Positions 22,171-52,200 of a stretch of 64,000 bases of DNA are shown one piece after another. The notes below the pieces were generated by a model that was not told the DNA's origin, made no database searches, and saw only the letters and a program-made list of their open reading frames with translations. Source of the DNA: Anagrus nilaparvatae (taxonomy: Eukaryota > Arthropoda > Insecta > Hymenoptera > Mymaridae); assembly GCA_022575985.1 (NCBI GenBank), contig JAKSXM010000007.1:3102501-3166500 (forward strand), in the 5' to 3' direction. A program made the translations under genes and the position numbers. Within the stretch, counting starts at the first letter, position 1. The number at the start of each line of letters is the position of its first letter.

Positions 22171-22207
22171 TTCTCGCAAGTGAAATGACTTTTTAAGGGT
22201 ATATATA
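22171..22207 (+). promoter_or_regulatory. PSE-like element plus TATA box, site 1
   Basis: The 16-mer TTCTCGCAAGTGAAAT (22171-22186) is followed after 13 bp by TATATATA (22200-22207). The same 16-mer and spacing occur at four other places in the window. This is the arrangement of insect snRNA-type promoters that recruit SNAPc and polymerase III. A start would be expected near 22228-22232, with a six-T run at 22260-22265. No known small RNA is recognisable there. Confidence 0.6.
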
Positions 22208-22904
22208 CAGGTGCAATATTTGATAAATTATTTCATTTTCACTAACAAAATATAATTAATTTTTTATTTCAGCTTACAGCTTTGATATACAATAAGTGCA
22301 ATATAAGTTTTAAGTCGTTGAAACTTTGGGATTAATTATTATATCATAAAAAACGTAATAATCTAAATTTTTAACCTTGAGATTTCCTCTTCTTGTTGTT
22401 CTAACGTTGTTTTAAATTAATACCTTCAGTATAATTTTCACTGTCTTTAAGGAATTTGGTTCTGAGACTTAACTACTGAGTGATTTTATATTTAGTAGTA
22501 ATTTAATTTATATTAAGCATCACATTTGAAGTCTAAATGAACTTCATGAAAAGACAAAACTTACCTTTTGAATATTTACAATTAAAAAATTTTTATGATA
22601 TAAGAATTCAGTCTTACCAATTAGTTTTTTTTCTTCAAAGTAGGTATATTAATAATATTAGTTATTATATTAAATAGTTATTATCCTTAAATTGAATATA
22701 AACCACAACAAATGTAAATTAAAGAAATATTTACTAGATTTTCTTGATTTTATTTTTTTTAATTCTTAAAACTTAATTAAATTTTTTAGATTAATACATA
22801 ACGAGCAATAATTCAACAGATATTAATTTTATTCTTTTTGGAAAAATAAATCTAAAGATCATTTTGATATCTTCATAAATTCTTACTAACACAATTATTT
22901 TAAA

Positions 22905-23140
22905 TAAAAAGGGAAAATCCAGAAGCCTTATGCAGTTTTCCCTAAAGTCTGTGCAAGGTTACTTATAATTGTCAGATAGCTTTTTCGATACACTAATGCA
23001 AAATTTTTAAGTCCTGATCCCAACAATTTAGCCCTAACGAAAAATTGTAATTTTAATCGAATTTAATGGTTACTTATTAGCGTATTTTATAAAAAACTTT
23101 TCTAACGTATTTTTGAGGTGACTGAATAAGAATATTTTTG
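22905..23140 (-). repeat. Dispersed repeat R3, copy 2 (inverted)
   Basis: The reverse complement matches 19835-20030 over TTAGGGCTAAATT.TTGGGATCA and the flanking blocks on both sides. It is separated from copy 1 by about 3 kb in inverted orientation. Confidence 0.5.
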
Positions 23141-23669
23141 TAACGATAGTAACTTTCTTTAAAATACCACCTATGTGCATATATTGGTCTGTTTATTGTG
23201 TTTTTAGTGTTAAGTTTAATGATATTAAAGTTTTTTTGGACCAAATATTTTTTTGCAGCTACCTTAAAAACAAATTGCTCTGTAATTTTGAGAATAATTA
23301 GTAAAGTTCCTAATGTTAAAAATCAATATAAAAATACGGTTTTTCTCATGCTTGGAACTAAAAATTTAAAATCAACTTAAAAGTATCCTTGCAAAAATTT
23401 TAGGAGAAAAGTGCATACATCTAATATTTACGACTGGGGATTTTAGACATTATTTATTTTATGTATAATTTTGTTTTAATTTTCATTGTTAAAGCTTTAT
23501 TAAAACTTATATTCGCCAATAAACTATTGTTTTTTAGGGATATTTTTTTTCAATGCACTATCAAAATTCAAGAAAATCTTATAACCGTGTTATTATTTTT
23601 GAACATAATATTAAATAAAATTTATTTTTTACTAAGATTTGGCCTTTAATATATATATATATGGCTTAG

Positions 23670-24696
23670 TTTACAGATGACTTACAAGTCTACAGTCAAG
23701 TATCACCTGAAAATGTACTGGAGGTCACAGCTTTATTATCTAAAACAGCTCGTAACATCTCTGCTTGGGCTGCCGGTATCAGTGGCGGATCCAGAAAGCT
23801 GTCTCAGGGGGGGCGCTCAAGCAAAATTTTGTATGTTTTCTCATGAAAATTTTTCAAAAAACACAAAAATTACCAAAAAACATGCCAATGTTAGGAGCTC
23901 AGGGGGGGCGATCGCCCCTACCGCCCCCCCTCTGAATCCGCCCTTGGCCGGTATTTCCCTTCGGCTCAATCATGGAAAAACGAAAGCTATATATTTTGGC
24001 ACGAGTACCTTTGTCAGTCGTTTAAAAAGCTTAAATTTATCGGGAATAGACTTAGGAAATGGCATCATCACTCCTTTTGTAGATGAGGTGACTAGTCTAG
24101 GTGTTATACTTGACAGCAGACTAAACTGGAACAGTCACGTTACAACAATTGAGAAAAAAGTAAACCGTGTTCTATACACTCTTAGATTTATTCAACACTG
24201 CACTACAGAGACATTACGTACGCGACTAGTACAGGCATTAATTATACCTCATTTTGATTATTGTTCAGTTGTTTACTTAAATGCAAACAACACACTAAAA
24301 ATGAGGTTACAAAGACTATGCAATTCTGGACTGAGGTATATATACGGCATACGCAAAGATGAATATATAACCCCTTTTAGGCGTAAGTTGGGATGGTTAT
24401 GCACTGATTCACGCAGGCATTACTTTTTGGCCATAATAATCTACAAAATCCTGCGGTTACATCAACCCTCATATCTGAGCGAATCTTTTACTAAATACAT
24501 TCCTAAAGAAAATGCAAGGGGTACTCTGCGTTCAAAAGAAATCACCATACCTAATATCAAAAATTGTGGGACAAACACCATTCGGTACAGAGGCGCTAGA
24601 CTTTGGAACTTCTTACCTGCAGAAATTCGGTTTCTACCTTCACTCAACTCATTTAAAACTGCTATGCACAAACATCTCCTTACACTTGATCCCTAG
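23670..24696 (+). pseudogene. Reverse transcriptase C-terminal fragment, interrupted
   Basis: The retained part runs from the FTDDLQVYS catalytic box through NHGKTKAIYFG and TSLGVILDSRLNW to PHFDYCSVVYL and the terminal YRGARLWNFLPAEIR block typical of CR1/Jockey-type reverse transcriptases. The N-terminal palm and the endonuclease are missing. A 167-bp MITE plus its 8-bp target duplication adds 175 bp and shifts the frame. A continuous 339-codon frame (23677-24696) arises only because the MITE is open in the needed frame, and its first ~90 residues are not reverse transcriptase. The protein cannot be functional. Confidence 0.85.
23780..23946. mobile_element. hAT-type MITE inside the LINE
   Basis: The termini are imperfect inverted repeats (CAGTGGCGGATCCAGA at the left, CAAGGGCGGATTCAGA reading in from the right). 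The insertion is flanked by the perfect 8-bp direct repeat GCCGGTAT (23772-23779 and 23947-23954). An 8-bp duplication and CA-G-GG termini are typical of the hAT superfamily. The 167-bp interior has G/C homopolymers and no gene. Confidence 0.92.
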
Positions 24697-25066
24697 CAAG
24701 GGCGTTTTCATAAACATAATATCCCACCCTTTTGTTACAAGACAATTACTTATTACTCATTATTTTATGTTATTATTTTATTTTAATATATTACACTTAT
24801 TTTAATAATTTATTTAAAATTAATTTTACCATGTACATGCAACTAACTAATTGACTGTGATACCTATGGCAAATTATTAAATTTAAACTATTTATTTTAT
24901 TTTACTATAAAAATTTAATAATGTTATCACTATTATTTCAAATTTATTATATTTTATTAATGTTAATTATCAATTATTCACTATGATGTATATTTTATTT
25001 TTGATTATTGTATTTTTTTTTGTTTAATTGCAAATAAAGAATATTTACATTTACATATATTATATA

Positions 25067-25357
25067 TTATTTATTATTTACTAATTTACGTAAATATTGA
25101 CTGTGATAAAAATTATCGTACCAAAATTAATTGGCAGAAATTAATTAAATAATTGATGCTATGCCTGCTAAACCTCCATGCTATTCTTTTCTTTTCTATT
25201 TTCTATTTTTTAATTATTTATTTATTTATAAAACTTTAATAGAGTATACTTTAGTTATATATGTTATGTTATGCTAACTTGTTATATATGTATCATATTT
25301 TGTAAAAGAGCAAATAAAGAAAAATACAATACTTTACAATATATAAATAAGGAAATT
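25067..25357. other. AT-rich stretch after the LINE
   Basis: No gene. A second AGCAAATAAAGAAAAATACAA-like stretch near 25308-25330 resembles the LINE 3' end and may be another 3' fragment of the same family. Confidence 0.3.
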
Positions 25358-25682
25358 AATTTTACGATCGACGTTAATTTATAATTAAATAATTACTATA
25401 GATCGATATTTCAATCAAATAAATGCTTTTAATAGATATACACATATTTTCGTACCCAGAATGTATATCTAAGAACTATTAAATAATTTTTTTAAAATAT
25501 TTGCGTATCTTTAAAAATTCTGAACAAATGAATTTTAGCTAATTAGATCTTAAAAAAGCTAAAATAAATTTTATCTCAAATAAAAAAAATTCCTTCACTA
25601 CGGGGACTCGAACCGACGATCTAACTGTTTTTAAAAAATTGTTTTGAAATGCTTAGATATACATTCAGGGCACGAAAGTGTC
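25358..25682 (-). mobile_element. MITE with tRNA-like B box, truncated copy
   Basis: This matches 36979-37380 in inverted orientation. The terminal repeat contains ATAAATGCTTTTAATAGATAT and CAGAATGTATATCTAAG. The interior contains GGTTCGAGTCCCCGTAGTGAAGG on the minus strand, where GGTTCGAGTCC fits the tRNA B-box (T-arm) consensus. The right terminal repeat is cut short where repeat R begins. Confidence 0.7.
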
Positions 25683-25689
25683 AAAAACA

Positions 25690-27180
25690 CACAAATCACT
25701 CCTTTTTTGATAAAAATTTTTGGGTTAAATAGTGAAAATCATATATATTCCGAACATTTGGATCGGGAATTACAATCTATAGTTATGGATGACTTCAATA
25801 TGTTAAAAAAACATCCAAGATTCCCTCTGTTTAATCCAACGCGCCTTCTGGGCCTGCAAACGCAGTGCTCAATTCTACAACAATGTTATAAGATAGGATT
25901 TTTAGGCAATTTTCCAAATAACACTATCATATTACGTTTTAACCAAAATACTCCCATTTGGTCTCATTTTTTTGCATAAGTGCTACCTTTCATTCCCTGT
26001 AAATCGTAAGGGTTTTATCACCGATTCTCTCGAAACTATAGTTAATAAAGCAAATGTCCATTTTAGACCCGAAATGAACAATTTTTAAATTGCTCAAATT
26101 CTATGGCTACATTGCTCTTTTTATTTTTTATTTAAAATTGTTCATTTTTACAAATAAATGAAATTAATTTTTAACTATAAAAATTATTTTTATTTTTAAA
26201 GTAAAAAATGATTAACAATAAAAGTCACTGATTCACGTGCCCTTTTTATTTAAAATTATTGTTTTTTACAACTAAATGAAAAATGGCATGAGGTCAATTG
26301 TTAATTATAAATATTTTTTTTCTCCATTTTTTTTACTATTCCGTGTTTTTGTGAGTCAAAGAATAATTTTCTTTTTTTACAGTAAATATTCATCGTTCAA
26401 TTTTTGTTGTTGAAGTTCGTGGTCAAAGCAACGATGATTCTTACTCACTTTCATTAGGACACGTATGATATTTTAAAATAAAAAACGTATTAGTTACTAG
26501 TTTTCTTCGGTTGTGCTTGAAAGTTTTTCAGTGATTTATAAAATACTAGCAATTGCTTGCATATTGTGAAACTTGGTGTAAAATATAAGTTTAATTTTTC
26601 AATCTCCGAATGTTTGTAAAATTTTCTTCTACAACAGGCAAGTATGAAATTGAAAATTTTAACTTCTCAATACTCCAATTTTTCAATCTCCATAAAGCTC
26701 AATTTTTTATCACGAATTTATTCACCGTATTAATTATTTTAAGCTTAAAATGACCAATTTTCAAATTGCTGCGAAAATTAAAACTTTTAAACTGTCTCTT
26801 TTTTAGGGGCCATTTCTAAGACTTCTCTGGGAAGTTAGTGATCGAAGATAGATTGTTTTTAAATATTTTAAATTAGAAATCTTACTTAAAGTAAGAATCG
26901 TTTCCAAAATGAGCAGTTTCCAAAATAGGATAATTTAAAATTATTCTATTTTGGAAATGGCTAGTAAAAGATATAATTAAAATATTTTGGAAAACAGAAG
27001 GCCAGTGCTCAATTTTTTAGCTCCATATATTTTATTATTTTTATCAATTTTTATTTGGTCCATAATTTTAAAATTAGATTATTTTTTTAAAATTTTTGTA
27101 AATTAATCTGCTCCAATTAGACGTGTTTTAGTACAACTGCAAGGTGGCAATAAACTTGGAGATATATCACAAAAATATTA
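25690..27180 (+). repeat. Dispersed repeat R, copy c
   Basis: This copy carries the 66-codon frame (within 25644-25979; ...MLKKHPRFPLFNPTRLLGL...SILQQCYKIGFLGNFPNN...) followed by the full ~1.2-kb tail, ending with blocks shared only with copy a (GGTGGCAA.A.ACTT..AGATATATC near 27150-27170). It lies upstream of the plus-strand IR gene. Confidence 0.7.
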
Positions 27181-28055
27181 AAAATATTATAATTTTTCCA
27201 CAAAGTCCAAAAATAGGTCCACTCTACACTACACCGGTATCGTCTTCGATTTTTTATATTTGATAATTTTTTTTAATTAAGTAGAAATTAATAATAAAAA
27301 AAAGTACGCGTCATTATTATTTTTTTAAAAAAACTATCGAATATCAAAAATCAAATATGATAGCGATGTAGATGAGCAACTAAAAAAAAATTTCTGTAAG
27401 AGGAAAAGATTTTTAATTGCTTTTTGGCTTCAGAAAATCCGGAACCAATGGGCACAAATTTACTGGATTCCCCATAGAAAATATCGGTAATCACAGAGTT
27501 CTGGAATGCTGTTAAAAAAAAATTCGTTGAAGTTCACAATAACCTCAAAATATAAATAAAAAATGTTTATGATATAAAATATTTGCATACAGGTTATTGC
27601 TAAATTTAATACCGAAGAATTAATACAATTTTTGGATAAAGAAACCATTGTTTGGTGTTCAAAGTCATATTATATTACTCGTCGCTGGCGCGCGCGTGTT
27701 TTATATTTTGTGATTTTTAAATTTACACAATTAGATATTTATTGGTAATAGTGTAATTTATAAACTTACCATTTATATATTGTAATTATAAAATATTACG
27801 ACGTATAAGATGTATAACAAAAATTTTTACACATCATAGAGTGTAAAAAATAATTATTACCGGCCATAGAGTGTTGTTGTGTAATTTTGTACATATATTT
27901 ACACCATAGTGTTTAGAGAGTAGTCCTTTGTTTTTATTTTAATGTGCAGTGTAAAAATTCTTGTCAATGTATTTACTATCAAGATAGTAAATTTAATATC
28001 AAAATTTCATGTGCGTGATTTCTTTCTTCATATCATAATTTCTTTCATTTTTCAG
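27181..28055. other. Gene-free stretch before the IR fragment
   Basis: No gene. There is a short CG-rich spot (CTGGCGCGCGCGTG near 27687) and several CATAGAGTGTA echoes at 27835-27930. The block 27955-28010 echoes the TCTTGTC...TTTACT.TC...GATA.TAAATTT.AT sequence found near 28380 and 1060. Confidence 0.3.
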
Positions 28056-28251
28056 GATAATACGTGTAACTTGCATTCTACAACTTTTGGACATTATTCA
28101 ATCAAGTCCCATTAAAATTATAACAAACCAGATTCTAGAAGAACTGAAGCCAGATCGAGTGACTTTATATTCTGATTTCAAGAATGGAACCAACAGGATA
28201 AACCACTGTAGCTATCAACTGATTTACGAGGATCTGCTCAGCCAATTATAA
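28056..28251 (+). pseudogene. IR 5'-end fragment without start codon
   Basis: The frame AGG ATA ATA CGT... encodes the first ~65 residues of the IR family (RIIRVTCILQLLDIIQSSP through YEDLLSQL) with no internal stop. It lacks the ATG, abuts a TTTTTCAG acceptor-like site, and ends at TAA where homology to the intact genes stops. It lies ~630 bp upstream of the intact gene in the same orientation. It is either a leftover of a partial duplication or, less likely, an alternative 5' exon. Confidence 0.75.
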
Positions 28252-28885
28252 AATCACTCACAAACAATAAAAGAACTGTTACTTTTATTTCGCAACTTTT
28301 TAGGCTCTAGGCAATTTATATTTTATAATAATGTAATCAGTTGATTAAAATAATTGTTCATTCAAGATAAATTTACTGTCCTGACAGTAAATACCTGGAC
28401 AAGAATGTTTTATTGTGAGTAGAGTCCCCTTGTAAACAAAATAAATTTGTTTAATTATGAATATTAATCATGAATATTAATTTTTACAAAATTCAAAAAA
28501 GAGTAATAATGAAAAAATCTGATGACGTTTTTTTTCGAGTAATGAATGTTGTTTAATTTATTAACATTTCTTTTCAAAATCTGCAATAATTTATAAAAAT
28601 AAGTACGATATAAAGAAAATAATTCCTTAAATTTTTTTATATAAAAACTTAATCACAAAAAAAGTATTATTACATGATAATTAGTAATTGGTTATTGAAA
28701 ATTAGCAAGTTATTTTAAGTAAAAACGAGAGCTCAGACCTTTAAAACATAGATAAAATAAATATTATTTTGGTTCATGTAGACCATTTTTAGTATTAAAT
28801 CTATGATAAAACGAAATCTAAAAATTCGCATTTGGTATAATTTTTTTGAAATATTCTTCTCTTTTTTGTGCAGCTCGTTCAAATA

Positions 28886-30748
28886 ATGAGGATAATACGT
28901 TTAACTTGCATTTTACAACTTTTGGACGTTATTCAATCAAGTCCCATTAAAGTCATAACAAGCCAGATTCTAGAAGAACTGAAGCCAGATCGAGTGACCT
29001 TATATTCTGATTTCAAGAATGGAACCAACAGGATAAACTACTGCAGCTACCAACTGATTTACGAAGATCTGCTCAGCCAAGTTCCAACTGTTACAATTGA
29101 TCTTAATCGACCTGTGCCATTCATGAAATGGAAATTTAGCGTTGTTGATTATCATAAAAATATTAGTTCTCCGTTGCATGTAATTGTCTTATCGGAAGAC
29201 AAAAAGAAAAAATTTTTACAGAAATTATATAATGCATTTGCATACATAGCAGAATCCTTATTTTACTTGACGGAAACTAAAATTGTTCTAATACTAAATC
29301 GTTATCAAAACTCACCTGATTTAGTTCAAAAGATTTTTTCATGGGCACACTTAGGCAATTTTATTAATTTTTTTATTTTAGAATGCGCACCTCGAAAAAG
29401 TTTAAGAGTTATTAATCATCATTTTTTTCACCAAAGAGTTGAAATAACAAAATATGAAACCAATGCAACAATTAAATATTTTCCAAATAAATTCGAGAAA
29501 ATGGTTGGATATGTCATGAGAACTGGAGTGGCGAAAAATCTTTGGCCAGATTACTATCGGAATTATACTCGAAATTATTCTCTCTATCAGAATTATTATT
29601 CATTGATACCGATATTAAAATCTTGGGAATATTTAATTGAGTCGCTTAATGTAACTGTCCAATTTATTCCTACGAAATCTGACAGAATTGATATTTTGAT
29701 ACAAAAATATAAATTACAAGCTTATATTGTTCAGGGATATAACTTGGTTTCTGACAATTTAAATGATGTTTACATTTTAAAATCAGAAAAATTTATATTT
29801 CTGATTCCGATAATTAACGAAGAAAGTGTCAGCTTTATTAAGGATTTGTTAAAATTTTCACTTTTCTTTAGTGCAGTAATAATTTTGTTTCTTTTGTCTT
29901 TTCACTTTTTGAAATTTTCTATCAAAGAATGGTCAGTTTTTAAGCTTTACAGTTTTTTGTTAGGATTTGGAGTTGATATAAATTTTCGACGTAACTTAAA
30001 ATCCAAGATGATGTTCTTCACTCTATTTGTCGCCTCCTTTTATTTTCTTTCCGAAATTGTTTCCGATTTAACGAACATAAAATTCGAAACTAAAGAAGTA
30101 GCTGTGGTTGAAACTTTCGAAGATATACTTGAAAAAAATATCACCGTTTTATTTAATGACAATCCCAGTTTGTTTCATATATTACAAGAAACTTTAACAG
30201 GAAAAGCCTTAAGGATTGCTGAGATAGCTGAACCTTACTTTAATGAAAAAGTTGTTGATGTCAATAATGTTGTGATTATTTATGAGATAAACGTTGAAAA
30301 TTTTTTGAATTTTAGTAAACATCATTTTGATGGAGTGAAATATAAAGCAAGTGAGTTAGTTTTTTACGAAATGCTAAATATTTTTTCATTTCCAGAGAAT
30401 TCTGCATTTAGAAATAAGTTTGCTAAAACTCATTTGAGAATATCTGAAATCGGACTGGATTTAAAGTGGCGATCTGATTACGACCGCGTTAATAAAATTG
30501 AGAAGCGAATCGAGAATAATGATTTTGATGAGGATGGAGAAAGCGCTTTGCCTATTGTTCTTTTTGCTGTAATGTTTGTGGGAATAATTCTTTCCTTGCT
30601 TGCATTATTTCTAGAATTGCTTTGGTTTTACTACTTGTCTAAAATAGATTGGATAAATAAACTGAAAAATATTCTGACAAGTTCCAGGAAAATAAAAATT
30701 CGTAAAATTAAAGTTCGGCCTTGTAAAAAAATGGTTTTTGAAGTTTGA
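28886..30748 (+). CDS. Ionotropic receptor-like channel, complete
   Basis: One open frame of 620 codons. The ATG at 28886 was chosen because the in-frame codon at 28868 is TTG-type, not ATG. Order: signal peptide (MRIIRLTCILQLLDVIQSSP), extracellular N-terminal region, S1 lobe beginning GYVMRTGV, transmembrane 1 (FSLFFSAVIILFLLSFHFL), reduced pore segment (SFLLGFGVDI), transmembrane 3 (FFTLFVASFYFLSEIVSDL), S2 lobe with ETFEDILEKNI, transmembrane 4 (IVLFAVMFVGIILSLLALFL), and a short basic cytoplasmic tail (SSRKIKIRKIKVRPCKK). About 620 residues is normal for an IR. Function as an odour or taste channel is inferred from the family. A TTTTTTGTGCAG acceptor-like site ends at 28873, 12 nt before the ATG. 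Confidence 0.92.
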   Translation: MRIIRLTCILQLLDVIQSSPIKVITSQILEELKPDRVTLYSDFKNGTNRINYCSYQLIYEDLLSQVPTVTIDLNRPVPFMKWKFSVVDYHKNISSPLHVIVLSEDKKKKFLQKLYNAFAYIAESLFYLTETKIVLILNRYQNSPDLVQKIFSWAHLGNFINFFILECAPRKSLRVINHHFFHQRVEITKYETNATIKYFPNKFEKMVGYVMRTGVAKNLWPDYYRNYTRNYSLYQNYYSLIPILKSWEYLIESLNVTVQFIPTKSDRIDILIQKYKLQAYIVQGYNLVSDNLNDVYILKSEKFIFLIPIINEESVSFIKDLLKFSLFFSAVIILFLLSFHFLKFSIKEWSVFKLYSFLLGFGVDINFRRNLKSKMMFFTLFVASFYFLSEIVSDLTNIKFETKEVAVVETFEDILEKNITVLFNDNPSLFHILQETLTGKALRIAEIAEPYFNEKVVDVNNVVIIYEINVENFLNFSKHHFDGVKYKASELVFYEMLNIFSFPENSAFRNKFAKTHLRISEIGLDLKWRSDYDRVNKIEKRIENNDFDEDGESALPIVLFAVMFVGIILSLLALFLELLWFYYLSKIDWINKLKNILTSSRKIKIRKIKVRPCKKMVFEV

Positions 30749-31075
30749 TGAATTTATTTTATTATGCAATTTTAGTTTTCTAAAGATATTGGATTGTTGT
30801 GTTTAATAGCTATTTTTGAAACAAGGGACAAAATATTGGTTTTGACTTTGCAAGTGAAGACAGCATGCAAAAATCGAACCCCATATTTTTTGCCGTATTT
30901 TAAAACATAGTTTTACATAAAATGGAAAAAAAGCAGTCTCCCTAGGGTAGAAAATAGACTTTTTTTGCCCCAGATATGTAAAATAATGAAATTGCAATCT
31001 TTTTGTGTATTAGCATTTTATGCTTTTAACATCATTAATGTTTTTTATAAAATTAAGTTCTTTAATTATTGTGAA

Positions 31076-31470
31076 TACTCTCCATTTAAAAATAAGTTTG
31101 CTAAGATTGTTTTGAGAATATGGACATAAAGTGGCGATTTGATTACGATTACGTTAATAGAAATAATAAGCTAGTGGAATTTAAGGATCTGTGAAGTCAA
31201 GAAAGCGCTTTGCCTTTTGTACTTTTTGCTATTAGGATTATAGGAGTAGTTTTTTCTCTGCTTGTATTTTTTTTGGAATTGCTTTGGTTTTACTATACTT
31301 GGCGAAAATAAATTGCCTGAACAATTTCAAAAGAATTAGAAAACCGCGTTAGAAAATTAATATTCATAAAATAAAAGCTCAGTCTTAAAAAAAAAAAGTT
31401 CAGGAAATTTGATGAAATTATTTTATTGCGTGATTTTATTCAAGTCACTGGATTTTTGTGTTTAAAAATA
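31076..31470 (+). pseudogene. IR 3'-end relic downstream of the intact gene
   Basis: It begins at the IR codons for SPFKNKFAKI and includes a damaged S2 end, a transmembrane-4-like stretch (LLVFFLELLWFYY) and a 3' UTR resembling that of the intact gene (GAAATTTGATGAAATTATTTTAT near 31405 against 30740-30760). It contains stops. It is the remnant of a second tandem IR copy whose main part has been deleted. Confidence 0.7.
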
Positions 31471-31508
31471 ATAAGGTTTAAAAAAATTAAAATTAACAGA
31501 TTAAAATG

Positions 31509-31847
31509 AACCCATTAGCGCCAACATGACCAATCCACTGACGCTAGGATTTTCGATTAGAAAACGAGTAAAAAAATGATTTTTTTTTAAACTTTAAGTC
31601 TTCCTTTACTAAAAAGAACTTGTTTCACAAGATTCTGGGGTGAAATTTTTAATATTATTGACCATTAATTAAATACGGCGGCTTAAAAAAGACCAATAAT
31701 TGATTATTGATACAAAGTTAAAAACCTGACCCCAGAATCTTGTAAAACAAGTCCTTTTTAGTAAAGAAAAAACAATTCATTTTTTTACCCGTTTTATAAG
31801 CAAAAATCCGAGCGTCAGTAGATTGGTCGCGTCGGTGCTAATGGGTT
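31509..31847. mobile_element. Palindromic MITE, right-arm copy
   Basis: Counterpart of 9840-10159: inverted halves starting AACCCATTAG and carrying CAGAATCTTGTAAAACAAGT-type blocks around a short centre. It is about 20 bp longer than the other copy. Confidence 0.75.
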
Positions 31848-32939
31848 AACATTGAACTTGTATTTAAAAAATGTATTTGCAGAATAATTTTGTTGTTTGT
31901 ATTTTTAATAAATTTTATCGTTTTATTGTTAAATCCTCCTGGACAGAAAATTAATGGGGTTCTAGGTCTTAAATACTCCCGTTGATTCTATGTCCAGGGA
32001 TATCTTTTTATTTGAGGACCAAACAATTTTAACCAATTTAATTTCCTAATTATTTTTATTTTTATTTGAATATTCAACAAAATCAACTCACTTTATTTTT
32101 GATTTGATTATTAAAAAAAAAAAAATTTAACTGCGTTATAAGTTTAAAAGAAAGAAGTTCATAAAAATTAATTCAAGGAAAAGGAACCTTTGTTTTATTA
32201 AAAATTTAATCTATCGATTTTTTTGCATACAAGCACAAATTTAACCGTCCAAAAAATATATTATTTTTTATAACATATTTTTTTTTTCTTTTTGGATGTC
32301 AAACCTAATTTTTTCCATGGGATTTTCAAATGAGAATATAAAAAAAAATACTTTTTTAGATATATTTTGTTATTGCTTGAAGAACCGTAATGCCAATAAT
32401 TTGGCAGTGCTTTTTTCAACGACAATATATTTTTGCAATTGATGATTGGAAATATATAATTTACTTGAATTCCCGCCAAAATTGAATTTTAAAATTCATA
32501 GTGAATGTTTTTAACTCTACGTAGTTCTTTAAAAAATTAAACTTCGGAATAAAATATCCTTTGAGTATTCTTTTTTTTCTTCTATTTCAAATTTGAATAA
32601 ATTATTTTCAACAAATTTCGTTGAATATTCAGCTTCTTGACTGGAACTCTTTTTGCAATTTGATGTCTCTTGTAGTTCCTAAATTTTCAAAATTTATAAT
32701 TATTTAATAAACCGCTAAAATACTTGGATAAAAAACCAAAAACATTCATCTAAATTCTAAATTCCTCATTCTAAGATAACCATCAATTAATAAAAATTTT
32801 TTTAAAAACAAAATCTAAACAAACAAAAAAATTAAAAATTATTTTTTATTTTTAATTTAGAAATCCTTGTACTATTTACCTATAAATTGTAAACATATAA
32901 TCTTAGTGACAGACAAAAAAATTTTTTTTTATTAGACAC

Positions 32940-36498: not shown

Positions 36499-36540
36499 AT
36501 TGTAATGCTGCATTGCTCTTTTTAATTTTTATTTAAAATT

Positions 36541-36966: not shown

Positions 36967-36978
36967 TCAGGAAATGAT

Positions 36979-40099: not shown

Positions 40100-40136
40100 T
40101 TCTCGCAAGTGAAATGTCATTGGATCAGTATAAATA
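40100..40136 (+). promoter_or_regulatory. PSE-like element plus TATA box, site 2
   Basis: TTCTCGCAAGTGAAAT at 40100-40115, 13-bp spacer, TATAAATA at 40129-40136. Downstream is a small hairpin (ATGCTT...AAGCAT, 40144-40164) and then six T (40168-40173), 39 bp after the TATA start. Confidence 0.6.
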
Positions 40137-41131: not shown

Positions 41132-41168
41132 TTCTCGCAAGTGAAATGTCAACAAAACAGTATAAATA
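41132..41168 (+). promoter_or_regulatory. PSE-like element plus TATA box, site 3
   Basis: TTCTCGCAAGTGAAAT at 41132-41147, 13-bp spacer, TATAAATA at 41161-41168. A transcript starting near 41190 could run to a TTTT near 41247. The open frame starting at the ATG within the 16-mer (41146) has no coding character. Confidence 0.6.
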
Positions 41169-41395: not shown

Positions 41396-42020
41396 TTTTT
41401 TGGGTAAAAATTTCTGGAGATCGAAACTTCTGGAATGTTTAATATTTTTAGCCATTGATCATGTTATGTGTCCCTTAAAATTAAAAAAATAATTTTAAAA
41501 ATTTATTGACTACTAACGGAGATATTAGCGCTTGAAAGTTCATTAATTTTTGAGGTACTTAATTAATCAAGACTTTTTTATAAATAATCTAATTTTAAAA
41601 ATCTTTGAATATAATATTTAGGACATCATTTAGCATCGATTCACTAAAAAAAATTTTGATTTTCTACGTTTCGCCGCGAGTAACTTGATTTTTTGAAAAG
41701 TTTAGGTTAGGCCAAAAATCAAAAAACTTGAAATATATTTCACATTATTGTTAAAAATTGAGATTTTTTTTAGTGAATTGATGCTAAATAATGCCTTAAA
41801 TATTATATTCAAAGATTTTTAAAATTAGATTATTTAGAAAAAAGTCTTGATTAATTAAGTACCTCAAAAATTAATGAAATTTAAAGCGCTAATATTTCCG
41901 TCTGTAAAGAATAAATTTCAAAATTATTTTTTTAATTTTAAGGGACCCATAACATGATCAATGGCTAAAAATATTAAACATTCCAGAAGTTTCGATCTCC
42001 AGAAATTTTTACCCAAAAAA
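41396..42020. repeat. Foldback element with ~270-bp arms
   Basis: Bases 41396-41670 and 41750-42020 are long inverted repeats with scattered mismatches, starting TTTTTTGGGTAAAAATTTCTGG. The centre is itself palindromic (CTTGATTTTTTGA...TCAAAAAACTTG). There is no coding content and no clear target duplication. A transcript would form a hairpin of roughly 270 bp. Confidence 0.85.
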
Positions 42021-44255
42021 TGCTATTTCTATCCACCTGATTCAACCTTAAAAAATAAAATACTTAGTTAAATAAATGAGAAATCGACTTTTCCAGAGCA
42101 AAGATGTTTATTATAAATATTTTTCCCAACGTTGTTATAACTCTGTTAATTATTTCGAGTATGAATTATCCTTTAAAAGTAAATCATCGTTCAATTTATC
42201 ATCTCTTTCTATATTTTAAAAATCTCGATTACATACACCCCCCCATGAAAGTATAGAAAAACAACATTAATATCAGGTCATATTTAATGATACATTTCTT
42301 TAATTTATAAAATAACTAATTTTTTAATAACGTTAATTTTATTGTTGAAAAATAAAATTCTCATATTTTTTTCAAAAAAATTATTTATTCATAAATATAA
42401 ATACAAATTTTAATTAAACATAAAATATTAACATTAATTTACAGTTTAACAAGTTTATTTTTTACAAAAAACAATAAATATAATGGGTAATTTTAACATA
42501 CAATATCTCTAATTGGATCTTACATTAAATACAAAAGAAAATAAAACGTTCTGTCTATATAAACATAAAATATAAATACATTAATTTAAATTCAAATATA
42601 AGAAAAACTGTTATTTATATAAAAAAGAATTCTTTTTTTTTTTTAAATTAAAAAAAAATAAATGTAAATAATAATTAAAAAGTATAAAAAGGCACATTAA
42701 GGAAATAAATATATTTGATGATATAGTTTTGTAAAATAATTTTTAAATTTTACCTTTAAACGTGAGAGAAAAAAAGAATTTTTTTTATATTTAATTTCAT
42801 GTGAAAAAAAAAATTGTTTACAAACAATGTAATATTATTAAATACATGTCTATAATCTTTTATATTTTGATCAATTATGATTAAGAAAAAAATATTTTTA
42901 TCTCTCATAATCTTCATTTAATAATAATTTATTGTTTATAACGTTTTTTTTAGAATGAATTATATATTTCACACATAAATATAAATAAAAATTGACACTA
43001 AAATCTAATTTAAAAAGAGTTTTATGTGTGAATATTTAAGTAGAAAATATGAAACCTTATTATTAACTTTTTTTTATTAGAATGAAGCTCAGAAATTGCT
43101 GTGTAATTTCTATGACCCTTTCTTTATTGTAATTATTTATTAAACGTAACAATAAATGATTTACATTTATATTAGTATTTTATATATAAAATTGAATTTT
43201 TTAATGAGATTAAAACTTTATTTCCTCCTCTCATTTTTTATTGTATTTTTTTTTTCAATAACGTTTAGAATAAAATAAGCTTTTGTGTTAATTATTTACT
43301 TTTTTAAAACAAATCAAAATAATTCAATATTTTTTATTCTATAGTTTTAAAAATGTTAACTTATTGACATTATTATAAATAATGTTAAAAAAGTAGGTGT
43401 TTATATTGAAATTTTTTTATTATTAAAGTTAGTTTAAAAATTTTTTTTTTTTTTTAAATATATTTAATGATTTTTTGAAAGTTTAGTAAATATTTTATGT
43501 TTTTAAAAAGTATGTCAAACAAAAAAAAGTCAATACTGTATACTGTGGACATGTGGTGATTGAATTTTTAATGCCTTGACAATTTTGCAAACTTGTCATA
43601 AAAATTTTTTATTTTAAGCTCTAAATCTATGCTTTACCCATTTTAACTATTTAAAAAATCTAGTTTATCTTACACATAAAAATCCAATTTAATAACAAAA
43701 ATTCAATTTTTACCTTACGAACCCAGCTACAAAATTTAGTATTCCTCAAACTACTAACCAACCTAACTTAACAGTGTACTATTGATAATGATGCATAAAT
43801 TTTTATTTATTTGTTTGTTTTATTTAAAAATAAAATTAAAATTATATTTAAAAAAAATGTTGAGGTTTTTTTTTTATTTTTTAACTATTTATACTTTGTG
43901 GTTATTTATTATCATATGTTTAATATTATTATATAAATTTTTATTTAATATTAAATAAATATTACGTAAATTACATTAGCTTTTATTTTACTCTGGGTAT
44001 ATTTTGGTATTTTTTTTATTATTTTAACTGCAGTGGCTAACAAAAGTAAAGAAAATTTCTTAACTTTAGTAATAAAAAAAGTTATAGGCGAAGTTTGTTT
44101 TTAATTTTATGGTTTTTTTTGCTAATTATTTTTGTTTCTTTTTTGATGCATCTCTTTGTATCAAGTTTAATATTGCTTGTCTAGAAAGTCAAATTTTATA
44201 CGGTCATATGATTTTTCACATTTTGGTTTGTTTTTGTAAAATCATTAGAATTTAA
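42021..44255. other. Gene-free, extremely AT-rich stretch
   Basis: Long A/T homopolymers, one C run near 42238. No gene, RNA or element could be supported. Confidence 0.45.
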
Positions 44256-44328
44256 CCCCTTAGTGTGGTATGACGAGTATACTCTTTATAAGTATATGGG
44301 ATTCCTATACTAACTCTGCACTAAGGGA
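44256..44328. mobile_element. Tiny palindromic element, CCCTTAGTG termini
   Basis: The 73-bp segment has inverted ends (CCCTTAGTG at the left, CACTAAGGG at the right) and an internal GTATA...TATAC palindrome. It is preceded by TTAA, but no matching TTAA follows, so the family is open. Confidence 0.35.
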
Positions 44329-44549
44329 TCATAATTTTATATATAGGCTGATTAATTCCAATGGTGTATGAACCCCACGATTAAACAGGGACTTTTTCTC
44401 ACCGAGAAATTTTCAGAAGCAACCATGCTACAGCCTGTTTTACAATACAAAAAGTTAATACAAAATAGTATAAACTTAATTTAACGAGTAGCAGCAGAAT
44501 AAAATTACCTGGAATATAATTTCAATGATTGATCGAAATTTATCGCCTC

Positions 44550-44586
44550 CTTAAATATTCTCGAGAAATCATTTCACTTGCGAGAA
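44550..44586 (-). promoter_or_regulatory. PSE-like element plus TATA-like box, site 4
   Basis: On the minus strand TTCTCGCAAGTGAAAT (44586-44571) is followed after 13 bp by TATTTAAG (44557-44550), a weaker TATA. About 110-200 bp downstream (44345-44440) the sequence is less AT-rich and bounded by CAGGCTGTAGC and AATCAGCCT. A short T run (TTTT at 44504-44501) comes first. Confidence 0.5.
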
Positions 44587-46500
44587 AATATAAACAAAAA
44601 TTATTAATACCTAATATAAAATATTCTTAAAATTTCATAACTAAAAATGTAACAAAAGTCAAAAAATAATTTTTATTATATTTAAGTAAAAATATGCTAA
44701 AAATATTTAAATATCATTAATATGTGTGAAAATAATTTTTATATCCATAGCATTTTATAATCATAACTATCTTTATCCGTACCACTTAGAGGTATTCAAC
44801 AGCTTGAAATTTAATTTAAAAATTTTACTCTTTTAATATTTGCCAAGAGAAAATTTTAATTTTAGATAATCATTGTATTTCCTCAAAACAATAAATTAAA
44901 AAAAAATAAGTAATCAATTCTATTTTTAAAAACCAAAATAAAAATAATAAAAAAGTTGCATATTTTTATTTATGCTTGTGCATGTTCCTATGACTGATTA
45001 GATACTCTACGGGAGTAAGATTAAAAACAAAACAAAATGTTGTGGTATTATTATAAAGAATAATGAACATACTTTGAGAAACAAAAATCTGACCAAAACA
45101 ATGTTAAGTAAATTATTTATAAAGCCCCAAGAATCCGGCCACAAAATGTTGTTACTTCAATTTTTAATTGTATTAAAAAAAAAAAAAACAAAAGATAACT
45201 GAAAATATAATTTTATGTTAAGTATTTTAAATTATTTGGTCAAATTTTTCCTTTTTTTATTGTTCAGAGTTACAATAGCATAAATATTTTCAATTTTTTT
45301 TTTAAATTCTTGATTATAAAAATTTAACCTTTGTGAAGTTAAAATAAAAAAAAATATAATATAAGTTTGAATGAATACTGAAATTTATATGGACAAGTTT
45401 TAAAAAATTCTCGTGGGGGTGTTCCGAATACATAAAAAAATTAGTTATAAAACTATAGTTTTTTTTATGCATAAAGTATAAATGAGTTAAAAATTTTTTT
45501 TTTTAATTCATTTTTATTGATCGGAGTAAATGCAAATTATTCTAATACTAGGAAATTAAAGTAGAATACTGACCTGACACATTCGAAATTTATATCAGAG
45601 TTTTATTGACACTTATAGTTTTAAATTCAATAAGTGGTGAATACATATTTGAATAAGCAAAGGATACTTGATGAATCCAAAAATTAAAGGGGGGAGGGAG
45701 AATTTAGAGTTTGGGCCTGAAAGGGACCCAGACTTAAATAATGTTAGATAATTTCTGATTAAGAGGTTAAAAATTAAATTTTATTAACTTTGAGATTATA
45801 GTAATTCAGGAAATACTTTTAGATGGGAATACTTGAGGGACTAATTTTGAGTAAACATGAAATAAATATTTTGGTTACGTATTTTGAATATTTTATAAGT
45901 TTTATTTTTAATTGAAAATTGAACATGAAATATTATAAAAATTACCATCTCATAATTTTTTTACATTAGTAATTCATATAACTGATATCTTTCTATTAGA
46001 ATTATTCTATAGACTTGTGAAAATGTAAATAATTAATACTTAGTAACACATAATTTAATACCCATCGGTATAGAAAATTGTTTCGTCGATTAAATATTTT
46101 TTTTACAATCAATAAATAAAATGACACATAGAAATGTAGCAGTTATGCCTATAACACCCAAGAACTATACGTTTTAATAAATAATTTGCAAATGGAAGCT
46201 TCCAATACTAGTATTGGACATTTCGTTATCAATAATAAATTATTTATTAATAATAATTACATATCGCTATGAAAGCGTATTATTTTATAGATATTTAATA
46301 CAGAAGAATCGATGTAATTGTTGGATATGTAAAAAAAATGTTGTAAAATATATTTTTTTTATAATTATGTTAATACCTATACATTTGTATTTAATAAAAC
46401 TATGTTTATCTGGTATATAATATTGTTATATATATCATTTGAATACAAAAACGAGTACTATTATTATATCCGAACTGAAAATAATATGGATTTATTTTTC
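44587..46500. other. Gene-free AT-rich stretch
   Basis: No gene or repeat supported. Confidence 0.4.
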
Positions 46501-46635
46501 TTAGGGCACGCTTACATCAGCCTCGGTTGGGTTGAACTTAGAGATCTTAAGATATTTGACTAATTTAACACAAGTTTTTAATTTATATCAACTGAAAGAT
46601 TCAACTCAAACGAGATTGGAGTAAACGTACCCTAA
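46501..46635. mobile_element. Short MITE, 135 bp
   Basis: The termini TTAGGGCACGCTTAC and (from the right) TTAGGGTACGTTTAC are imperfect inverted repeats that continue with GGTTGGGTTGAA / CGTTTGAGTTGAA. The interior is noncoding. No clear target duplication. Confidence 0.5.
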
Positions 46636-49600
46636 GTTGGAGTTAGGAAAATATGCAACTGTAATCTGTATTGTAAGTTTTTTCTCATTTTTTCTCTAAA
46701 TCATAAAATTTGAAAAATTTAATTTTTTCTTCCATTATATTTAATAGATCCTAGAGCAGTCAAATATTATCAAGCTATTTCATTCTTTTGAATGCAACTT
46801 TATTATTTTTTAATAAAATTTCATATGAATGTAAATTAAACAATCGATCAATTTATGGATCTTTACTGGATGAGATAAAGTTAATTATTAATTAAGTAAA
46901 ATTTTATTATTGACTTAAGGTTAATTCAGAGTCTAAAAATTTAAAATTGTATATGAAAATAATTTAATATATATTTACTTTACAATAAGATTAACAGTTT
47001 TTGTTATTGGCTTTTCAGATTTTTTTTATTCGCTTGTATAGTTGAATTTTCCCTTTCGGTATTCTTAAAATAAAAAATATATGCTTATAAAATATAACGA
47101 ATTAAGAATATTAAATTATCTGATATACTATTTAATATACCCGTACAAAATCTTAGTTTGATATTTAAATTAAAAAATTTTTTAATAGGTTCAAGTCAAA
47201 ATAATTTTTCAATAATTAAGTACTAATTTATAACTGCTAATGAAAATTTTTTATAATTATTGTAAAACTTCATTTTTTAAATAAGAGACAAAAGTTATAA
47301 ATAAGTAGATAATAAATATATTAGGATAACTTAAAATTAAAAATCAACCTTCAGTTTAGACCCAAAAAACATTTAACTTAAAAAAATTTACATTATTTTT
47401 AATTCCAAAAATTTTAATTAGACAATGTCTTGATTCAGTAAAAATTATCTAAATCAACAACATTTCTAAAGACTATATTTACAAGTTTAGATATTTATCG
47501 TGACGAGATCATTATTCTTATATATATAGAACATGTGTTAAATGTGTGTGGAAGCTTTCGATTTTCAGTGTATATATCTAGAGAATATAATAGTGTATAA
47601 AGGTAACAGCCGTAAAATAACAACTGTGACATTAACGAGCTACTACTCTACTGTACTATGATCTTTTAAGTATTCAACATTAAACTTAAATTAAACTTAT
47701 TAAACAAACTTCACATTTTAGTTTTTTAGAAGTTTTTATTAATTATATGCAATTAAAAAAAATAAATTTTTAGTTAAGAGTGTAGATACTGAGATGTTAT
47801 GTTTTAAATTTACTGGAATTTCAATTTACAAAACAATTGATCTTTTGAATGGTTTTAAATTATAGCTGTTATTAACAAAGGAAAAAAAAACAAAAATAAA
47901 TTAAAAATCCAAGAATCATTAATTATATATGTGAAAAAAATTAGCAAAAATTCTTATAATTTTTTTTTTTTTAATTAGAAAATATAATTTAATTTAATTA
48001 AATTTAATTAAAGTTTTTTTTACAAAATAATAGTGATGTAACTGAATACCTAATTTTTAAAATCTATTGTTTTTTAAATAAATATTTATAATGTGCACAT
48101 GTGTTTTTTTTTAATGAATCACCAGGGTGCAGACTTTAATAATGCGAATGAGTTAATTTAATAATTTTAATTATTGAAAATTATGCATTTTTGGAGTGCT
48201 GGTTACATGATTGAAACATCAGAATGTAATTTTAAAAATGCCTAGTTTATAACGAATTTAAAGAAACTTTTTAATTTGAGGCTAAAAGTGAATTCAGGAA
48301 AAAAAATAAAAATAAAATATAAATAATTGAAATCCTCCTCCTGATTGAAAAATCCCAAATTAATCCATAATTTTCTTTTAAAAAAAATATTTGAAAAACT
48401 AATAAATCAAAATTATTACACAAAAAATATAAATGCATCACTTAAATATTCAAAACCCTAAAAAAGCTACCAACAAACATATTAAATCTGTGTAAATATT
48501 TTGCGAATATTTTGAATACATCACAAAGTAAGCTTAGAAACTATATCACACCTGTTACGCGTCTTTCATACACACTAATACATATATATCTCAATATATA
48601 AACGCATAAATATAAACCCAAAGAACCAAAGTCACGTACTTATTGGAATTTCATATATATATGAATATAGTTGTTGAGGTTTTGGAACTTATATTATGCA
48701 CTAATTCATATATACTTAGGTGAGGTCAGTTTATATACACATATTATATTATTAGGCTTTTGTGTCTTTGGACCTTTATTTACTCAAGCGAATATACAAA
48801 ATGTAAAAATATTTTACAATTTTTTTTTATGCATGTCAAACATGCAATCTGACTATTAAAAAAATTTTTATAAAATGTCCAACGAGGCGTATTTATTAAA
48901 AAATATTTTTATATTTTGTGAAAAAAAAAAATTTGTTTTCAAAAAAAAGATTTTAACTTTTAAAAAATTTATTTATAAAATATTTTTTTAGAGGTTATTT
49001 ACATTAAATATATGGAGGAATGATTTTAAATTTAAAAATAAAAAAATTATGTGGGTATGTATTATAAGCACTGTAGCGAGACAAGTTTATAACATCAAAT
49101 AACATATTTGTGTGTGTGTGTGTGTGTGTATGCATTTATAAGAAAGAAAAAAAAGGGCATTGTTCTCGGGCTCTCTATATATAAAAACTGCATAAAATCG
49201 TACATACAGTTTGGGCATACATAAATATGATTATATACAAGTACATTTTTGTACATACACGTACGTGTATATCAACAAAAAAAACGTTACAGTAGTGTGT
49301 GAGCTTTCAAGTTTTTTTCGTGCAATTGCTTATAAGTTGCAGCATACATAGTGCATCGGCCTCCTCAGTTGCGTCAAGGCCAACGCGAAAAATCCTCAAG
49401 TTAAATAAAATTGTAGTGGGGTAATTTTTTTTTGCGTTCGTTCCTCTCGATGAGAGTCGACGTCCACCTAACCGCCGAAAGCCCCTCTCTTTAAAAAAAA
49501 CACACATATATATCAATACAAGCACATAACATTCGCAATTCCTCACAGAGGCATTATCTATACTTCTTTGCCGGGCCGATCTCTTTTTCTCGAATCTTCG

Positions 49601-51445
49601 CCAAGACTTCTTTTCTTTTGCCGTGTCATCCTTTTATATTTTTCTCGGTTCCTCCACCCCTTTTTTTTTACCTTTATAATATAGTCAAGTAAGTAATGGG
49701 CCCCTTTGGAATCTACATTTTCCTTTTTTTTTATTGTCCTCTTTGGTTTTGTGCTTCTGATGTGACTCTTTGTTTTGTGGGCCTATAATACTGACTACGT
49801 AGGTCCTTATAATATAAAACTTAAGTTTTATACTCTGACTGGAAAGAATTATATTATGTTATATGGAGGGAGACCGGAATCTGGTTTTGCCCTAGGTCAT
49901 GGACGGCCAAACCACTGGGCAGTTTTTCTGCTTTTTTTTTCATTTTTTTAAGCATATATATAAGTAATGTATATTTTTTTATAACAAAAATTTTTATGTC
50001 TTAAAGGATTAAATATTTTTTGCTGTTTTTTTTGAAAAATATTAAAAATACTTTTGATGAAGAAATTTAAAGTTTCTATTACCAATTTGAATATTATAAA
50101 CGTATCATGAATTTGAAATAACGTTTGCATTAGACTGTGGAAAATGCTAAAACGTGAACAGACTATTAATTAAGATATTTATTGTTCGTGTTTTTCAGGC
50201 ATCGTATGCAATTGTAAGTGTTAAACAATTGTATCTGTACTGAAAATTGCTAAATTAAATTTTTTTTTACCATAAATTATTGGACTTGTTGTCAATTATA
50301 ATATCGGATTTTACAGTAATGTTTTGTGAAAATCAGTTGAAAATTTTGGATGTTAGAAATATTTTGAGATATTTTTTCATGAGAAAAAGTATTTAAATTG
50401 AATAGTATAAAGCATATTAACGAAATTATTGTATATATTATAATTTTGTAATGTCACTAATTTTAAGAAATTTCCAAATAACATTTTTTTAGCAAAAAAA
50501 AAAAAAAAAAATGTAAAAAAAATATTTTTTAAAAATAATAAAATTTTAATGTGAACAAAGAAACCATAATTTCATAACAATATTTAACTTTATTAATCGA
50601 TTGACCACGTAATTTACCAAGTATACTTTCACGCATATATAAGTTTAAAAATTAGGTCATCATACATGCATTAAAAAAAAAAAAAAAATTCTACTCCAAT
50701 ACTTTTATCATGTAAACTGTATCGAAATTTTCAAGTACTCTACAGAAACAGGGCTTTAAAAACTCTTGAGTTAAGATTCAAAAAATCTATTATGTTTATG
50801 AAAAATGTTATGTGAAGTGAGTAAATTTATTTGAGGTAATCAAATAAAATCTTAAATGTATAAAAATTATAACAATTTTATAATAAAAGTTATTTCAAAT
50901 TTATCGATTGAAAATATAGATTCAGGTAAATAATAATGAATTGTAAGTACGAATGACTAATAATAAAAATTAATTAATAGTAATGACTTAACCTAAACTT
51001 AATCGGTATAACCAGACGATAAATGGTCTTGTAAAGATCGAGGTTAAGATAAAAACCTGGGAATGATTTTTTCTAATTTTTAATATATATGGACGAAAAA
51101 TTGCAGAATTCATAATATAATTACAAATGTTATTCTAATAAATGTTTACTTGTAATAGTAAGAATGGAAAATTATTCCCAAAAAGCCAGTTAAAGCCTTA
51201 GTATATGAAAGAGAAAATTTAATTGTGCTTATTGTTAGTAAATAAATATATATATGCACACAATATAATTACTAATTACGTCTACCAGAATAAAAATGTT
51301 TGATAGCAAACAAGTGAAAAATTAAGGGAGATCGACATAACTATCAATTATTATATTCGATATTTGAGACATTTTCATTATACGCTGCAAAAAAGTTCTA
51401 CTTTCTTACTTTCGGGCGATCTTTTTTTCGCTCTTAATGAAAAAC
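46636..51445. other. Gene-free stretch with a less AT-rich, pyrimidine-rich region
   Basis: No gene supported. A GT microsatellite lies at 49110-49129. The region 49300-49900 is less AT-rich with several CpG-containing words and a pyrimidine-rich plus strand. Long minus-strand open frames there (49307-49546; 49552-49781) are rich in Lys/Arg/Glu and reflect the purine bias. It might be a promoter or 5' exon region of a gene outside the window. Confidence 0.35.
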
Positions 51446-51575
51446 TATGTGTTGAACACGGGAAAAAATGTAGGAATTTTTACTTTCAATGCTGTCTGAA
51501 CTCGTTCGCTACGCTCACTCGTGCATACAACTGCATTGAAAGACAAATCCTACTTTTTTTCCCTTGTTGAACAAA
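51446..51575. repeat. Palindromic element with ~45-bp arms
   Basis: The arms around GGGAAAAAATGTAGGAATTT (51462 onward) and its complement TCCTACTTTTTTTCCC (51547-51562) extend outward to GTTGAACA on both sides. The loop contains CTCGTTCGCTACGCTCACTC. Confidence 0.6.
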
Positions 51576-52163
51576 TAGATATTTTAGTACAAGTTACCCT
51601 ACAGAAAATATAATAAAGACTAAACACCAAAAAAAAAACGATTTTACGCCAATATAAAAATTGTTAAAAAGTTTATTATTTGAAAAATTAATTGTTGCTA
51701 AAATCAAAAATTAGTTCAAAAAAATTGTGCATCTAGGGCCAACCCTTATTAAAATTTAGCATTTTCACCAAATCGAAATTGCACCCTTTTCAATTCTTAT
51801 TTACTAATTTCTTAGACCTTAGATGAAGGCTATAATGATCATTCAATCTCAGCAACTTTGAAAATTCCCGGCTATTTTAGAGTAAAATAAAATAATAATT
51901 AAGTTTTGAGCAAAATAACTTTTTGAAAGAAGAACGTTTTTTCTGTACCAGGTAATACTCATAATTGCAATGAGATATTTAATATTGATCGGACACAATT
52001 TTGTTCTTATATTTTATACTTGAAAATAAAAAATGTAATAATATTTCAATAAGAAAACCTTCGTAGACAAGCACAGTGTCCACTAAAAACTTGCAATTGT
52101 AATGGATTATGAATATTATATAATTTAAAAAACAACTTTTAAATTTTTCTTTATTTGATTGTC

Positions 52164-52200
52164 TTTATATAGACTATGAAAGTCATTTCATTTGCGAGAA
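52164..52200 (-). promoter_or_regulatory. PSE-like element plus TATA box, site 5
   Basis: On the minus strand TTCTCGCAAATGAAAT (52200-52185, one mismatch to the other four) is followed after 13 bp by TATATAAA (52171-52164). Six T follow at 52132-52127, 39 bp after the TATA start, the same distance as at site 2. Confidence 0.6.

Follow-up and report, generated by a model that had tools for sequence, protein, structure and literature searches.

The genes for nematode PIWI-interacting RNAs (piRNAs) are described, in the sections of one source consulted here, as short unrelated sequences that lie behind a strongly kept promoter and form clusters on the megabase scale, and the nematode Ruby motif is held there to derive from the SNAPc element (PMC6436959); Caenorhabditis elegans has more than 15,000 type-I piRNA (21U-RNA) loci according to the consulted part of another (PMC7917550). 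Two kinds of small nuclear RNA (snRNA) promoter serve as the insect comparison, namely the SNAPc-dependent promoters of the RNA polymerase II (Pol II) genes U1, U2 and U5, which carry the proximal sequence elements PSEA and PSEB, and the type 3 promoters of RNA polymerase III (Pol III), as in U6, U6atac and hymenopteran telomerase RNA, which combine a PSEA-type element with a TATA box. Here we analyzed a stretch of 64,000 nucleotides (the window) from the hymenopteran Anagrus nilaparvatae (GenBank assembly GCA_022575985.1, contig JAKSXM010000007.1, positions 3,102,501 to 3,166,500 of the forward strand; the contig is referred to as C62), in which a 16-mer, TTCTCGCAAGTGAAAT, recurs at a fixed distance in front of a TATA-type box. 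The initial annotation of this DNA had read these sites as a cluster of U6-type Pol III promoters with no known RNA behind them.

The 16-mer was found at all five coordinates given in that annotation, being exact at 22171 (+), 40100 (+), 41132 (+) and 44571 (-) and carrying a single mismatch at 52185 (-), and a TATA-type box begins exactly 13 bp past it at each of the five sites. A sixth copy, which the annotation had missed, lies at 18222 (+), with two mismatches and a TATA box also 13 bp on. With up to three mismatches allowed, the window holds 7 sites, versus a shuffle mean of 0.83, and no shuffle reached 7. Genome-wide, the exact 16-mer occurs 1,073 times (526 on the plus and 547 on the minus strand) in 488.7 Mb and 393 contigs, and 876 of these copies (431 plus, 445 minus) fit the layout with TATA at exactly 13 bp; both counts were 0 in the backward-read control. 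Of the 56 exact copies examined in sequence, 46 had TATA at offset 13, the background rate being 1.7% per position. Near-identical promoter copies number in the hundreds in this genome, and degenerate copies add to the 876. With 1,073 exact copies genome-wide, the proposed cluster did not survive as a local feature of the window.

The copies are not spread evenly on contig C1, where all 100 copies listed lie and where clustering was seen. Four of them fall in the first 20 Mb and 96 at 21 to 35.7 Mb, and in the latter stretch 33 of 95 gaps between listed copies were shorter than 20 kb versus 11.7 expected. These counts indicated clustering on C1 at the level of domains as well as locally. Opposite-strand neighbors at close range are mostly head to head: in a set of 86 copies, the pairs less than 600 bp apart comprised 9 head-to-head, 5 tandem and 1 convergent, and the five pairs less than 500 bp apart among the 100 listed copies comprised 3, 1 and 1, respectively. 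Six loci (L004, L011, L012, L024, L027 and L031) make up a bidirectional subfamily, homologous over 200 to 350 bp at about 70%, and their head-to-head pairs are separated by 118 to 148 bp from element to element. At four of the six, the motif TTGCA[T/C]GGCC occurs in a downstream stretch that is kept on one side.

To delimit the conserved block, 68 sites from the window and the C1 loci, each with at most two mismatches and a TATA-type box at 13 bp, were aligned; besides the window on C62, the loci studied were L001 to L048, which hold the copies that head the C1 listing, and the statements on flanks rest on these. Information was high between about -7 and about +37 relative to the 16-mer and fell almost to zero beyond these limits. 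A 45-bp matrix built from the aligned sites found 90 sites above 12 bits in 354,573 bases, 86 of them scoring above 25, and none in the reversed sequence; these counts are partly circular because 68 of the sites found were training sites. By box, the 86 copies fell into a TATATA class (53), a TATAAA class (17) and others (16). A local variant was observed at L044 (3801-, 4160+ and 5150+), where duplicated copies have TTCTTGCA[A/C][A/G]AGAAAT cores with the same TATA spacing, which suggests subclasses of the element.

The flanks of the 86 copies were largely unrelated. Of 3,655 pairs, 23 were alike above the null maximum upstream (-130 to -8) and 5 downstream (38 to 200), and 18 of the 23 pairs alike upstream were not alike downstream; counted from the pair list, 24 copies had a relative by flank and 62 had none. 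Conserved sequence beyond the block, looked for as the mark of a transposable-element terminus, was not found in this comparison, which rules out a transposon as the sole cause for the copies compared. The initial annotation's statement that a transposon is not the explanation thus stands in the form that no single transposon accounts for these copies. Its companion statement, that the window flanks are unrelated apart from the second and third sites, was likewise reproduced: among the six window copies, similarity between -130 and +200 was found only for 40100 and 41132, a duplication of 114 nt at 72% identity.

We then compared the 16-mer with the snRNA promoters of the same species, for which about 96 bp were taken in front of 10/10 U6, 10/27 U2, 9/12 U1 and 6/6 U5 matches; one truncated U2 match (L068), by eye without such a promoter, was excluded, leaving 34 promoters. 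The best match to the 16-mer fell at one place per family in 29 of them (U1 9/9, U5 6/6, U2 5/9 and U6 9/10), and four U2 genes had a better match in a stretch further upstream. The core C of this element lies 55 bp before +1 in U1, 54 bp in U5 and 60 bp in U6. When single promoters were shuffled, the score of the 16-mer match in the 19 U6 and U2 promoters was reached by 6 to 286 of 500 shuffles; since such shuffles are not decisive one by one, it is the set position within each family that constitutes the evidence. The closest element, TTCTCGCAAAAGAAATGATTTTTTAAGTTAATATAAGG of the U5 gene L080, is identical at 14 of 16 positions, and the exact 16-mer occurs in 0/34 promoters. The initial annotation had asked whether the species' own U6, U1 and U2 genes use the same element; relatives of it stand there at the right place, but not the identical 16-mer.

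An independent model of 38 bp, made from 18 distinct U1/U2/U5 promoters with the new copies left out, was run over both strands of the window, and its five best sites in the 64 kb were all copies of the 16-mer. In a second comparison, the 86 copies averaged 12.8 bits under a 22-bp U1/U2 element model, under which 99.9% of sampled plus-strand window positions scored below 3.4. These results make it well supported, and very probable in our view, that the 16-mer is closely related to the PSEA found in the Pol II-type snRNA genes (U1/U2/U5) of A. nilaparvatae. Upstream of the element, a TAGGTGGC-like motif (often CCGCTAGGTGGCG) was observed in most U1/U2/U5 genes (L059 to L067 and L069 to L083), the counts being U1 9/9, U2 8/9, U5 5/6 and U6 3/10, and it looks like a distal element of the snRNA genes of this species. 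This motif is mostly missing from the new copies (2/86). By its make-up, the 16-mer with TATA 13 bp on is a putative core promoter of snRNA type in minimal form, in most cases lacking the motif found upstream in the snRNA genes. As a separate observation, C62, the contig of the window, carries 18 of the 27 U2 matches; several of them are tightly grouped, and one (C62:2870306) lies some 232 kb away from the window.

In the window, the PSEA-like elements and their boxes were scored with the same 38-bp model, and putative start positions were placed from the 55 bp between core C and +1 in U1. The highest rank was taken by the one-mismatch element at 52185..52200 (-; 31.4), with TATA box TATATAAA at 52164..52171 (-) and a predicted start at about 52141, followed by the exact element at 22171..22186 (+; 28.5), with box TATATATA at 22200..22207 (+) and a predicted start at about 22230. 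Third came the two-mismatch sixth copy at 18222..18237 (+; 20.2), its box TATATAAG at 18251..18258 (+) and its start probably near 18281, and fourth the exact element at 44571..44586 (-; 19.1), with a TATA-type box, TATTTAAG, at 44550..44557 (-) and a start at about 44527. The exact element at 40100..40115 (+) ranked fifth (17.4); its box TATAAATA at 40129..40136 (+) belongs to the TATAAA subclass, for which the polymerase type is ambiguous, and its start would be at about 40159. The exact element at 41132..41147 (+), part of a diverged local duplicate of the 40100 promoter with the same TATAAA-subclass box TATAAATA at 41161..41168 (+) and a predicted start at about 41191, ranked 7th with 11.9 bits, under the reversed-control maximum of 13.5.

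The type of polymerase was approached through spacing and element sequence. The distance from the core C (of CGNAA) to TATAA was 27 bp in 43 of the 53 TATATA-class copies, as in 18 of 24 U1/U2/U5 promoters (U1 7/9, U2 8/9 and U5 3/6), versus 31 bp in 9 of 10 U6 promoters, so that the main class is about 4 bp shorter in spacing than U6. The U1/U2/U5 element model was preferred over the U6 model by 73 of the 86 copies (TATATA 49/53, TATAAA 12/17 and others 12/16), the remaining 13 scoring better with the U6 model. In the consulted part of a Drosophila study, PSEA and PSEB are 8 bp apart in Pol II promoters and PSEA and TATA 12 bp apart in U6, which is the same 4-bp gap, and PSEB and TATA are reported not to set the polymerase (PMC4227766). 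The TATA box does not decide the polymerase in the present species, because U1/U2/U5 here also have TATA-like boxes. For the main class, the 27-bp spacing together with the preference for the U1/U2/U5 element speaks for Pol II rather than Pol III, and we are moderately confident that Pol II would serve these promoters. The U1/U2/U5 spacing was found for the TATATA main class only; in the TATAAA class (17/86, including 40100 and 41132 in the window), TATAA lies at 25 bp from the core C in 17/17 copies, and the polymerase of this class is ambiguous. As for the initial annotation, its proximal element plus TATA is indeed of snRNA type and kin to the species' own snRNA promoters, but the U6-type layout it had assigned mostly did not hold, since U6 spacing with a U6-type element was not found in most copies.

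The sequence behind the promoters was then searched for what they might transcribe. Rfam gave 0 families at gathering score in the window and 0 matches in 14 of 20 ten-kb loci, the 14 that were scanned, and ARAGORN found 0 tRNA in the window; the initial annotation had likewise recognized no known RNA, and the presence of known RNAs downstream was rejected for the window and the 14 loci. No excess of open reading frames (ORFs) was detected downstream, either within 400 bp (median 24 amino acids [aa] sense and 27.5 antisense, p 0.17) or within 1,000 bp (39 and 38 aa, p 0.69), nor was there an excess of 5' splice sites, and downstream coding exons were rejected on these two grounds. The 48 loci contain 11 ORFs of at least 150 aa, and the 8 searched in Pfam comprised a BTB protein, a reverse transcriptase, a hAT transposase, a zinc-finger protein (below most cut-offs) and four without a good match; no family was common to the 8 of 11 ORFs searched. 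RNA structure downstream was not above controls (mean z -0.15 to 0.18, controls -0.18 and -0.23), and no strong strand-specific hexamer was found there.

Certain compositional features were nevertheless recorded downstream. The GC content was 0.19 to 0.21 at index 50 to 125 and 0.27 to 0.31 at 175 to 450, with about 0.245 upstream. AATAAA/ATTAAA numbered 266 in sense versus 164 at 300 to 700 bp and 72 versus 103 at 700 to 900 bp, repeats being included in these counts, and runs of at least four T versus A numbered 52 versus 74 at 40 to 100 bp past the 16-mer and 126 versus 84 at 100 to 200 bp. Sequence shared with other loci amounted to 14 to 20% at +250 to +500 and to 2 to 13% in nearly all other bins, apart from 16 to 32% in the promoter and the preceding 200 bp, which represents shared promoters; the shared downstream sequence consists of several repeat families at varying distances. 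One MITE-like repeat (miniature inverted-repeat transposable element), which carries all or part of the core TGCGCATGCGCA, was seen about 90 to 500 bp downstream at L009, L017, L020, L023, L025 and L030. Together, these observations are a hint that a few hundred bases downstream may be transcribed.

Set beside the known systems, the new promoters resemble those of U1/U2/U5 in their related element (14/16 identity with one U5 gene), in the usual 27 bp to a TATAA-like box and in being found by a model made from U1/U2/U5 genes. Unlike these genes, they occur at hundreds of loci, with unrelated downstream sequence among the compared copies and no Rfam RNA at the scanned loci, and they have a stronger TATA (TATATA in 53/86) and the TAGGTGGC-like motif in 2 of 86 copies. 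They share with type 3 Pol III promoters a PSEA-type element and TATA, from which most copies differ by a 4-bp shorter spacing and a U1/U2/U5-type element. With the nematode type-I piRNA genes, as described in the consulted sections cited above, they have in common a large number of loci with a SNAPc-like motif, unrelated downstream sequence and clustering on the megabase scale (here on C1); unlike them, they have TATA at a set spacing and showed no signature at the start site, and their small RNAs are putative. By analogy, the new promoters may work like nematode piRNA loci, and membership in the nematode family is not claimed.

We lean, if only slightly, toward the reading that the copies are SNAPc-type promoters, scattered over the genome, from which short non-coding RNAs would be made, in a layout like that of the nematode piRNA genes. 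SNAPc would bind the 16-mer element and TBP would sit on the TATA box, Pol II would initiate about 59 bp past the base with which the 16-mer begins, and the product of each locus would be a non-coding RNA, short, unstructured and different in sequence from the others, whose likeliest use would be as a precursor of a diverse small-RNA set. Small RNA genes behind the promoters are what we infer, and the unrelated sequence without a known RNA beside most of the copies examined is a hint that such small transcription units may form a large class not described before; that the transcripts act as guide RNAs is a tentative hypothesis, drawn by analogy and on the whole rather unlikely. Several findings weigh against this reading. 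Besides the absence of the exact 16-mer from the snRNA promoters, six of the 24 U1/U2/U5 promoters lack TATAA at 27 bp (two have it at 25 bp and four have none), about 170 bp downstream are conserved on one side in the bidirectional subfamily, unlike in other copies, and a conserved initiator or 5' base was not found at the putative start. Other such findings are best considered with the alternatives that they favor.

The most serious of these, though improbable by our estimate, is that all copies, or the TATAAA class only, are U6-type (type 3) Pol III promoters whose transcription ends at T runs to give short uncapped RNAs. The copies do have a strong TATA box, as U6 has here, and their core CGCAAG[T/C]GA resembles U6 as well; T runs are fewer than A runs at 40 to 100 bp and more numerous at 100 to 200 bp; and within the TATAAA class, the U6 element is the better fit for 5 of 17 copies, while a second box, TATAAG, stands at the U6 distance of 31 bp in 5 of 17. 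Against it stand the TATAA 4 bp nearer than in U6 in the main class, as in most U1/U2/U5 promoters, the better fit of 73 of the 86 elements to the U1/U2/U5 model, the same 4-bp difference between the snRNA promoters of Pol II and those of Pol III in Drosophila, as given in the consulted part of that study (PMC4227766), and the TATA-like boxes of U1/U2/U5 here, which deprive TATA of diagnostic value. The block could instead be a core promoter common to many related Pol II genes, protein-coding or long non-coding, whose exons lie far off, since the sense excess of AATAAA/ATTAAA at 300 to 700 bp and the GC content raised at 175 to 450 would also fit longer polyadenylated transcripts; the lack of an ORF or 5' splice-site excess and of a common family among the searched ORFs, and the kinship of the promoters to snRNA promoters, leave this with little likelihood.

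Two further explanations were considered. A transposon family or mobile promoter cassette, such as the end of a short interspersed nuclear element (SINE), a MITE or a Helitron that bears a promoter of snRNA type, the bodies of the elements having since decayed, would account for the high copy number and local duplications, for the homologous bidirectional subfamily, for the 24 of 86 copies with a relative in the set and for the several repeat families downstream, and L002 is located within a tandem repeat, next to a frame resembling a transposase, by eye only. However, information ends outside about 45 bp, 3,632 of 3,655 upstream pairs lack similarity above the null maximum, the downstream repeats are of several kinds at varying distances, and a decayed element would hardly keep the element, TATA and the 13-bp gap while losing all else; we regard this origin as unlikely, slightly less so than the distant-exon gene family. 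Finally, snRNA-type promoters spread by past duplication might now be relics out of use. The 197 of 1,073 exact 16-mers without TATA at +13, which also count against the preferred reading, indicate that some decayed or chance copies exist, but element, spacing and TATA are kept amid unrelated flanks, and decay would not spare a 13-bp gap. The retention of the block while the flanks are unrelated suggests continuing selection, and the relic explanation is very improbable.

Apart from the promoters, the window contains receptor-like, fast-evolving ORFs at 10511-12424 (-), 28850-30748 (+) and 62256-64000 (+), two of which stay open for over 600 codons and are 84% alike, and there are fragments close by. 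They may be divergent insect ionotropic receptors, but Pfam gave no hit. A degenerate tandem repeat at 1378-1986 (+) reads as PPFGHPHLVTPIW-like repeats in two frames.

In the surveyed literature, which was available in excerpt, snRNA-type promoters at hundreds to thousands of loci are described for nematode piRNA genes only. The excerpts on insect PSEA, on SNAPc with piRNA and on snRNA-like promoters contained no insect report of dispersed snRNA-type promoters, and the first 12 bases of the 16-mer had no occurrence in the literature searched. Thousands of sequences led by a proximal sequence element (PSE) and holding a telomere template-like region are stated, in the consulted part of one report, to be predictable in most insect genomes, and among them only telomerase RNA candidates were pursued there (PMC9841428); judging by that part, similar promoter sets may exist in other insect genomes.

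Concrete predictions for chromatin and RNA data follow from the pairs in head-to-head orientation and from the domain of high density on C1, and a genome of this kind also bears on how a promoter outlives the sequence that it transcribes. It is conceivable, although we think it doubtful, that an insect lineage independently turned the SNAPc/snRNA promoter into about 1,000 autonomous small-RNA genes, for piRNA-like or other guide RNAs, with sequences of their own, arranged in megabase domains and partly in head-to-head pairs, which would make them a convergent counterpart of the nematode 21U-RNA genes. With 876 such promoters in one insect genome, the question of whether SNAPc was recruited repeatedly for the mass production of small RNAs would become open to direct test.

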